Shown here in pieces: positions 15,023 to 16,648 of a stretch of DNA of 42,731 bases. Numbering within the stretch: position 1 is the first letter of the stretch; every line of letters starts with the position of its first letter. The translations under genes and the position numbers were made by a program. The notes beneath the pieces were generated by a model, which was not told where the DNA came from, did no database searches, and worked only from the letters and a program-made list of their open reading frames with translations. The stretch comes from an uncultured Bdellovibrionales bacterium (GTDB lineage Bacteria; Bdellovibrionota; Bdellovibrionia; Bdellovibrionales; UBA1609): contig CAILEP010000006.1 of the NCBI GenBank assembly GCA_903833275.1, positions 323,652 through 366,382 of the forward strand, in the 5' to 3' direction.

Positions 15023-15973
15023 TTATTTAGGCTGGATGACTATGACGAATTCCGTCAGGCCGTTAATAAAGTCTGGGGACTCATATATCATCAATGGCGA
15101 CCCATTAAAGCTCCAGAGGTCGTCTTTTAAGATCTTTTGATGAGGTAAGAAACCTGCCAAAAGCAACGCTGACTTGGGTGGTATCGAATAGCTGCCATTA
15201 ATGGCAGTGGAGAGAAGCGACCCGCCGGTTTCATTTTTCAAATTTATATTGGCTTCAACTGTGAAATCCCAGACGCCATCGGTCATGGCGGTCGGATTGA
15301 GCACCAAACTGAGGCCAACGGCTTCGGGGGTTCGTTTGCCGCCCATGTGGGTGAAGTCTAAATTAAACGGAGTGCCTACTAAAAACGCCTCGATATGGGG
15401 TTCGCCATGGCTTCGCGCCTCGGGGTCGATCTCTTTAATCTTGGCGATGGCATCAGGGACATGAAGTAAAAACGATTTTGTCTGTTGGGTTTCATTTAAG
15501 ATTTGGCCATCGGTTGCGAGTTGGGCCACTCCAGCTTTAGAAACTTCATAAAATGCAACACTAAGGTCTTTGAACTTTCGCACATCAGAAGAGACAACAT
15601 TTAAGGCGGAGCGGCTTTTCGGCGAGGCCGCGACAGGCGGGGCGTTGGGCGGCTCGGGGCGCAAAGCGGCGGTGATGGTGGGCGTTGGCGAGTCTTGGCT
15701 TTTCGAAGAATCAGAGGTCGGCATTGAGCGCTTCATCGAAGGTATTGCGTTGGCTAAATGCTGGGCGATGCGGTCTCTTTGCGAAATAAAGATGGCGATA
15801 GCCATGGCGATTACGATCAAAATGACAATAGCAATCTGCAGGCCCGTGTTCTTCGATAACCGAACGAACAGCGAGTCTGGAACTGGCTTATACGACTCGA
15901 TATCGAGACCGCAATTGGCGCAGTACTTGTCTTTTGGCTGAACAAACCCGCACTTCGGGCATTCATGCATCAT
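15023..15973 (-). CDS. Zinc-ribbon single-pass membrane protein, unknown function
   Basis: The N-terminus carries a zinc ribbon with Cys5, Cys8, Cys18 and Cys21 (CPKCG and CANCG), then a charged linker, one membrane helix (about 44-63), a low-complexity Pro/Ser/Ala linker and an extracytoplasmic domain of about 190 residues rich in beta strands. The topology puts the zinc ribbon in the cytoplasm. I do not recognise the outer domain. The frame is open to a GTG at 15997, but tandem ATGs at 15973 and 15970 sit directly before the zinc ribbon and are more natural starts. It is divergent from mraZ. Confidence 0.7.
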   Translation of the reverse strand: MMHECPKCGFVQPKDKYCANCGLDIESYKPVPDSLFVRLSKNTGLQIAIVILIVIAMAIAIFISQRDRIAQHLANAIPSMKRSMPTSDSSKSQDSPTPTITAALRPEPPNAPPVAASPKSRSALNVVSSDVRKFKDLSVAFYEVSKAGVAQLATDGQILNETQQTKSFLLHVPDAIAKIKEIDPEARSHGEPHIEAFLVGTPFNLDFTHMGGKRTPEAVGLSLVLNPTAMTDGVWDFTVEANINLKNETGGSLLSTAINGSYSIPPKSALLLAGFLPHQKILKDDLWSFNGSPLMIYESPDFINGLTEFVIVIQPK

Positions 15974-16011
15974 ATTGTCCGCAACCTCTTGCCCCACCTT
16001 TATTTCATATC

Positions 16012-16039
16012 TTGACGCATGCGAGTCATATGGTAAAGT
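16012..16039 (+). promoter_or_regulatory. Predicted promoter of the mraZ division and cell-wall operon
   Basis: TTGACG at 16012-16017 and TAAAGT at 16034-16039 with a 16-base spacer. The -10 element overlaps the first of three AGTGGAA boxes, so MraZ bound there would block polymerase. Transcription would start near 16046. Confidence 0.5.
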
Positions 16040-16064
16040 GGAAATTAGTGGAAAATAGTGGAAT
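16037..16064 (+). promoter_or_regulatory. MraZ operator: three AGTGGAA boxes at exact 10-bp period
   Basis: AGTGGAA occurs at 16037-16043, 16047-16053 and 16057-16063, one helical turn apart. MraZ in other bacteria binds tandem TGGG-type or AAAGTG-type boxes with the same 10-bp spacing upstream of its own gene, so autorepression of the operon is the likely role. An inverted copy, ATTCCACT, lies at 16083-16090. Confidence 0.8.
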
Positions 16065-16096
16065 TAAGCTCGCAAGGCCCAGATTCCACTTTTTTT
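16057..16096 (+). terminator. First terminator-like hairpin in the mraZ leader
   Basis: AGTGGAAT (16057-16064) and ATTCCACT (16083-16090) are perfect complements with an 18-base loop, followed by a run of seven T (16090-16096). The stem uses the third MraZ box. It is only half GC and so is weaker than the second hairpin. Confidence 0.4.
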
Positions 16097-16098
16097 CA

Positions 16099-16127
16099 GA
16101 AGCCCATGGATGGGCTTCGTTTTTTTT
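16099..16127 (+). terminator. Intrinsic terminator (attenuator candidate) in the mraZ leader
   Basis: GAAGCCCAT (16099-16107) and ATGGGCTTC (16110-16118) form a nine-bp perfect stem, then G and eight T (16120-16127). It ends 20 bases before the mraZ ATG. The gene to the left is divergent, so there is no plus-strand gene upstream for it to end. It should cut short transcripts of the division operon itself unless it is overridden. On the minus strand no T run follows the stem, so it is not a terminator for the other side. Confidence 0.7.
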
Positions 16128-16147
16128 GTTTGAGAAGGCAGGTTAGG

Positions 16148-16648
16148 ATGACCGGTTTTCAAGGTCGCGCACACATCAAGATCGACCCAAAAGGGCGCAT
16201 TCATCTGCCCTCTTCATTTGCCGGCGTATTGAAAAAACAAAATCAAATCGTGGTAACGAACTCGGTTTACGGTAGTGAAAAATTTCTTGATTTTTATGCT
16301 CTCTCAGAATGGCAAAAGCTCGAAGCTAAAATTTCGCGATTGCCTCAATTGAAATCAGAGGTTCAAGCCTTTCGCCGGTTCTATCTCTCGAGCGGCGAGG
16401 TCATCGAGCTCGACAGCCAATCGCGTATATTAGTGCCTCAGCACCTGCGTGAGTATGCCCAGCTCGAGGGTGACGCCGTGATGGTGGGCATGGATTCTAA
16501 AATTGAAATTTGGAATAGTAAAAAATGGAATAAACTTTTCGGCGAGATCGCCAACCGCTTCGATCAGGTGCTCTCGGTGATTTCAGATTTGGACGAAACC
16601 TCTACGAATGGTTCTCTTAACACTCCGATAAAGAGAAATAAAAAATGA
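16148..16648 (+). CDS. mraZ: Transcriptional regulator MraZ
   Basis: DNA-binding regulator of the AbrB-like MraZ family, first gene of the division and cell-wall cluster. Two MraZ repeats are seen: GRAHIKIDPKGRIHLPSSF (about 6-24) and EVIELDSQSRILVPQHLREY (about 80-99), each with the strand-turn pattern DxxGR/DSQSR. The 166 residues are slightly longer than the usual 150 because of a polar C-terminal tail. The frame is open upstream to a GTG at 16058, but that stretch is the operator and terminator region. ATG 16148 starts the fold. It overlaps rsmH by four bases. Autoregulation through the three upstream boxes is likely. Confidence 0.93.
   Translation: MTGFQGRAHIKIDPKGRIHLPSSFAGVLKKQNQIVVTNSVYGSEKFLDFYALSEWQKLEAKISRLPQLKSEVQAFRRFYLSSGEVIELDSQSRILVPQHLREYAQLEGDAVMVGMDSKIEIWNSKKWNKLFGEIANRFDQVLSVISDLDETSTNGSLNTPIKRNKK

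Follow-up and report, generated by a model that had tools for sequence, protein, structure and literature searches.

The window analysed here, a 42,731-nt stretch of DNA from an uncultured Bdellovibrionales bacterium, carries mraZ as the first gene of a division cluster, and the features of the mraZ leader are collected in Table 1. The left neighbour was read in the sequence as divergent, as the preliminary description had it; it encodes a zinc-ribbon protein of unknown function, and most of the relatives that were read also have its cysteine-motif N-terminus in divergent orientation to mraZ or rsmH. The predicted promoter that had been placed upstream of the hairpins was reproduced, and it overlaps the first of three MraZ boxes. 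A TTGA[CT][GC]-type element lies 10–30 nt ahead of a box in 33 of 50 mraZ leaders, and GTGG repeats are present in nearly all of the relatives' mraZ leaders too. Because similar promoter elements precede the boxes in so many leaders, the hairpins are probably transcribed within the mraZ message, and a transcription start upstream of both hairpin 1 and hairpin A appears most likely. The fold of the leader beats 200/200 dinucleotide shuffles (z -3.62), and no Rfam family matches the window at gathering score.

Table 1. Features of the mraZ leader and its surroundings (positions are those of the window)
Feature	Position	Strand	Remarks
Zinc-ribbon protein gene	15023-15997	-	divergent from mraZ
Sigma-70-like promoter, TTGACG-16-TAAAGT	16012..16039	+	runs into MraZ box 1; site reproduced
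Three MraZ boxes, GTGGAAA / GTGGAAA / GTGGAAT, 10-bp spacing	16038..16064	+	sequence
Hairpin 1, terminator-like	16057..16096	+	pairing of box 3 with ATTCCAC, followed by T7; fold -11.7 kcal/mol
Hairpin A, GAAGCCC-AUGGAU-GGGCUUC, putative high-affinity CsrA site (CANGGANG hexaloop)	16099..16118	+	covariation, model search
U8 tract directly behind hairpin A	16120..16127	+	G, then T8; candidate intrinsic terminator in this species
Hairpin B, GGUU-AGGAU-GACC, second putative CsrA site	16141..16153	+	overlaps ribosome-binding site and AUG; covariation
mraZ (Pfam PF02381)	16148..16648	+	first gene, mraZ-rsmH-ftsL-ftsI; ftsL named by position

Both of the hairpins that had been described in this leader are present, with small corrections to their stems. 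The first (hairpin 1) is indeed formed by MraZ box 3 and runs into the T7 (16090-16096), with 9 bp in the fold (16057-16065 paired with 16082-16090) where 8 had been claimed. The second (hairpin A) is GC-rich and has the T8 behind it; its arms, GAAGCCC at 16099-16105 and GGGCTTC at 16112-16118, enclose the loop AUGGAU at 16106-16111 (-12.0 kcal/mol), and the stem is of 7 bp, or 8 if an A-U pair closes a tetraloop, rather than 9. A third structure, hairpin B, had been overlooked: its pairs reach probabilities of 0.97-0.995 in the fold of the source leader, and its AGGAU loop (16145-16149) lies over the AUG at 16148, placing a second GGA site at the start codon.

Conservation was assessed in a comparison sample of 50 mraZ leaders from the class Bdellovibrionia, drawn from the family, its order and one further order of the class; the relatives compared are Bdellovibrionales/Bdellovibrionia MAGs, and the leaders for the covariation tests were picked by sequence alone, so that choice by structure was avoided. 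Hairpins of the CANGGANG type occur in 32 leaders. Hairpin A is conserved across about ten families, where the loop stays A-N-GGA-N and the closing pair C-G on stems that include GAAGCCC/GGGCUUC, AUGCCC/GGGCAU, GUGCCC/GGGCGC, AAGAUGUCU/GGACGUCUU, GGGGUCC/GGACUCC and others. The in-frame AUG in its loop was rejected as an upstream start, because the loop varies (ACGGA, AAGGA). Hairpin B takes such forms as CACC-AGGAU-GGUG, CUUC-AGGAU-GAAG and GGUCC-AGGAU-GGACC in the relatives.

Over the eight pairs of hairpin A in the 32 leaders, 91.0% of cells are paired as against 77.4% in shuffles, with two-sided changes in 30 cells against 11.5 and a covariation score of 0.473 against 0.220 (0/500 in each case), whilst the four pairs of hairpin B in 31 leaders have 91.1% of cells paired against 63.8% and 34 two-sided cells against 12.0 (again 0/500); these shuffles ignore relatedness, and the two-sided changes nonetheless span several pairs and several families. 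Sliding the partner columns as a control left a much weaker signal for hairpins A and B alike. Cells with G-U outnumber those with A-C by 43:5 in hairpin A and by 20:4 in hairpin B, which argues that the structure forms in RNA of the plus strand rather than as a palindrome in the DNA. The compensating base changes sought in the second stem were found, with six of the eight pairs of hairpin A changed on both sides, and the preliminary description was right to call for a second, RNA-level layer of control in this leader. Judged from these comparisons, the two conserved and covarying A(N)GGA hairpins are almost certainly a real RNA structure on the leader of the division operon.

The conserved pairing that had been envisaged for the first stem did not emerge. 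The box-3 inverted repeat is significant (p<=0.05) in 0 of 44 mraZ leaders and is itself marginal against shuffles in the source leader (p 0.06, repeat taken alone); hairpin 1 was accordingly rejected as a conserved element and is private to the source genome. Inverted repeats near the last box were noted by eye in three leaders (L004, L024 and L025) and are unlike one another. The latter two leaders are without hairpin A and have MraZ-box palindromes just before mraZ (GUGGUAUCCACCAC then U7; GUGGGAAAUUAUCCCAC), which, like hairpin 1, are possibly recurrent operator hairpins.

Proteins of the CsrA family recognise ANGGAN hexaloops closed by C-G, the CANGGANG of CsrA/RsmE, and a CsrA dimer can span two sites separated by 10-63 nt, in the classical case a hairpin and a ribosome-binding site (PMC7652899, PMC4894983). 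The source leader has the layout of the known CsrA targets glgC and Campylobacter flaA, in which a hexaloop of this type is combined with a GGA at the start: C-AUGGAU-G (CAUGGAUG) at 16105-16112 supplies the hairpin-loop site, and hairpin B the other. The distance between the two GGAs is 20-74 nt among the leaders, and 23 of the 25 that were scored automatically for both sites fall within 10-63 nt. The conserved stem, the A-N-GGA-N loop and the covarying GGA hairpin together indicate CsrA-type translational control, and not termination, as the conserved function, and the two-hairpin leader is probably a CsrA site. Some features count against a CsrA reading: most CsrA ligands selected in vitro are shorter and less stable than hairpin A, with four or fewer contiguous pairs in the majority (PMC7652899), hairpin B has four pairs only and a pentaloop, and csrA is present in several genomes whose mraZ leader has neither hairpin.

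The CsrA–FliW systems of C. jejuni flaA and B. subtilis hag resemble the mraZ leader in that two A(N)GGA-loop hairpins sit in a short leader, the second of them over the ribosome-binding site, and in that csrA and fliW are neighbours within a flagellar operon, as they are in the source genome. The structure of the flaA leader is backed by compensating changes (PMC4894983), and the mraZ leader has the same kind of support. They differ in their target, which is here mraZ and the division operon and not a flagellar gene, in the spacing of the GGAs (35 nt in the source leader, 21 there) and in the U8 that follows hairpin A. In E. coli glgC, likewise, the CsrA dimer is anchored by a GGA in an upstream hairpin loop and reaches across to the ribosome-binding site (PMC7652899); the gene is a different one, and in E. 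coli sRNAs antagonise CsrA, whereas here the antagonist would be FliW.

The CsrA of the source genome is encoded at G000:C6:285937-286095, retains L4 and R44, and matches chain 2jpp of an RsmE-RNA structure. Directly behind csrA lies fliW, the two following flgI-flgJ-flgM-flgN-flgK-flgL. CsrA was found in 102/102 near-complete genomes of the order, and since it is nearly universal its co-occurrence with the element cannot discriminate; presence or absence of CsrA was dropped as an uninformative test.

In the 3.08-Mb source genome the best match to a covariance model of hairpin A (R1) is mraZ, followed by the flgK leader and then by a site between flgI and flgJ. When the whole genus was left out of the model (R2), mraZ was still at the top (E 2.9e-6, 33.3 bits), with the flgK leader second (18.5 bits, E 0.13) and the flgI-flgJ site fourth; both flagellar sites lie 3-5 kb from csrA-fliW (the flgK leader at 3 kb), on a contig that makes up 12% of the genome. 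R1 also has several matches inside coding sequences of other genomes, which were treated as chance, so that single weak matches mean little. In the family, most of 25 flgK leaders show, roughly at -20 to -60, a hairpin with an A(N)GGA loop and a varying stem, and most have a GACAGGAUGUC-like sequence at the flgK start. In a genome of another family (G128), a flagellin gene 11.5 kb from csrA is preceded by the hairpin-A-like site GACUCC-ACGGAU-GGAGUC (L158:201-230). Taken together, the rankings of the two models, the flgK leaders and the flagellin match argue that the design of the mraZ leader is common to flagellar genes near csrA-fliW. The flgI-flgJ intergenic stretch (L116:2676-2760, on G000:C6) contains the hairpins ACAC-AGGAU-GUGU and UUGACC-AUGGAU-GGUCAA along with further GGA motifs, and is a possible multi-site CsrA leader or CsrA sponge. 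Strong hairpin-A-like matches of the form AGACAGAGCCC-AUGGA(A/G)-GGGCUCUGUCU were also seen in two genomes, G026 and G027 (L139 and L146), where no obvious gene lies downstream and the mraZ leaders are without the element.

The main alternative to a CsrA site is attenuation by intrinsic termination, in which hairpin 1 and hairpin A would stop most transcripts at 16096 and 16127 and read-through would set expression of the dcw operon; we consider this a serious possibility, somewhat short of an even chance. Its anatomy is in place, as a GC-rich stem with U8 and another stem with U7, and hairpin A is the only terminator-like match in 16000-16160 (0.1 expected), hairpin 1 having been missed by the terminator scan because its loop is long. 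A run of at least five T follows hairpin A in 9 of the 32 leaders against 0.44 expected from other windows in the same leaders, an excess that is an upper bound because some of the U's may belong to the 3' arm of the stem; the tract is found in four of six members of the genus. There is also a precedent in the UpsM/dcw leader of the Rhodobacteraceae, where a hairpin with a U tract separates mraZ from the dcw promoter, the operon may be terminated prematurely and read-through is about 1 in 100 (PMC5089854), and a short RNA could be formed here as UpsM is in Rhodobacter. Leaders of the UpsM type have been described as exclusive to the Rhodobacteraceae (PMC5089854), and they differ from this one in length (268 nt, here about 100 nt); the U tract here is not conserved, and conservation of the loop and of the hairpin at the start suggests a protein partner. 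In 23 of the 32 leaders the stem and loop of hairpin A are kept without a U tract, which argues against termination as its conserved function, and the invariant ANGGAN loop is not needed by a terminator. The earlier view of the second hairpin as a terminator is partly right: its anatomy in this species fits, and nine leaders have the tract. Hairpin 1 is unconserved, and the weak antiterminator pairing that had been proposed was rejected: GGCCC/GGGCU gives -27.2 kcal/mol against -41.7 kcal/mol for the free fold, a penalty of 14.5 kcal/mol that leaves no viable mutually exclusive pairing, and no counterpart was seen on reading the relatives' leaders. Attenuation is possible in some lineages, the source genus included, and the chances that hairpin A is a working terminator in this species seem to us evenly balanced. 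Termination may act together with CsrA, and E. coli pgaA, which is subject to CsrA and Rho, is alike in having CsrA sites in a leader able to stop transcription (PMC7652899); termination there depends on Rho, whereas the mraZ leader has a hairpin that in itself looks like an intrinsic terminator. A leader that joins MraZ boxes on the DNA with a two-hairpin CsrA site, which would couple mraZ translation to the flagellar checkpoint of FliW and CsrA, one hairpin of which doubles as a terminator in the genus, and in which CsrA binding could change termination too, is a tentative and rather unlikely reading; such a leader would connect motility state directly with cell division in Bdellovibrionia at the level of RNA.

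The remaining alternatives are weaker. Control at the DNA level only, with the boxes and the box-3 inverted repeat as operator and the hairpins as by-products of operator palindromes, would suit the three GTGG boxes in register and ATTCCAC as an inverted box; it is very improbable, given that neither hairpin A nor hairpin B falls within the boxes, and that both covary and accept G-U where they do not accept A-C, the pattern to be expected from RNA. Recognition of the two GGA hairpins by another RNA-binding protein or a ligand, as in an r-protein-like leader or a riboswitch, would agree with a conserved structure that has an invariant loop core and is covered by no Rfam family. The loop, closing pair, start-site overlap and spacing nevertheless all fit CsrA sites, flgK beside csrA-fliW has the same hairpin pair and no larger conserved aptamer was seen, which makes a different binder improbable.

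The reading that we favour is that the mraZ leader is a CsrA-responsive RNA on which CsrA, held off by FliW, represses translation of mraZ; this is likely as a whole, and we infer CsrA binding, repression, control by FliW and actual termination. Transcription would start near 16045, and hairpin A would fold in the nascent RNA, its ANGGAN hexaloop holding one face of the CsrA dimer; some transcripts may end at hairpin A and its U8 in this species. That the effect is one of translational repression is reasonably probable, repression and not protection or activation being the assumed sign. FliW, encoded beside csrA in the flagellar operon, would keep CsrA off, and the flagellar state would thereby set translation of both flgK and mraZ. 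If this is right, the regulator that keeps flagellin supply in step with flagellum assembly would also gate the first gene of the division cluster; no paper joining CsrA with mraZ or the dcw operon was found in the literature searched. In the best-known predatory member of the class, a swimming phase without division alternates with a dividing phase without motility (PMC3627812), and the leader suggests that motility and cell division are under one common control at the RNA level. It also illustrates that a leader hairpin resembling a terminator can serve as a conserved putative protein-binding site, with a U tract that is present in some lineages and absent from others.

About ten mraZ leaders of the order are without both hairpins (L013-L015, L021, L024-L026, L081 and others), and of 140 genomes of the order only 48 were found to have mraZ with its boxes. 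Neither boxes nor the hairpin element were present in 20 rsmH leaders from genomes without mraZ, so its occurrence on dcw operons that lack mraZ was rejected and the element goes with mraZ; it seems that mraZ and the leader hairpins have been lost together across the order. MraZ was mostly not found by the search used in the Bdellovibrio-like closed genomes of one family (f3), and the finding therefore need not hold for B. bacteriovorus itself. The source genome also encodes a second, distant RsmH (MraW) paralogue, 33% identical (G000:C16:20390-21262), which occurs in four further genomes as well (G021, G120, G123 and G124).
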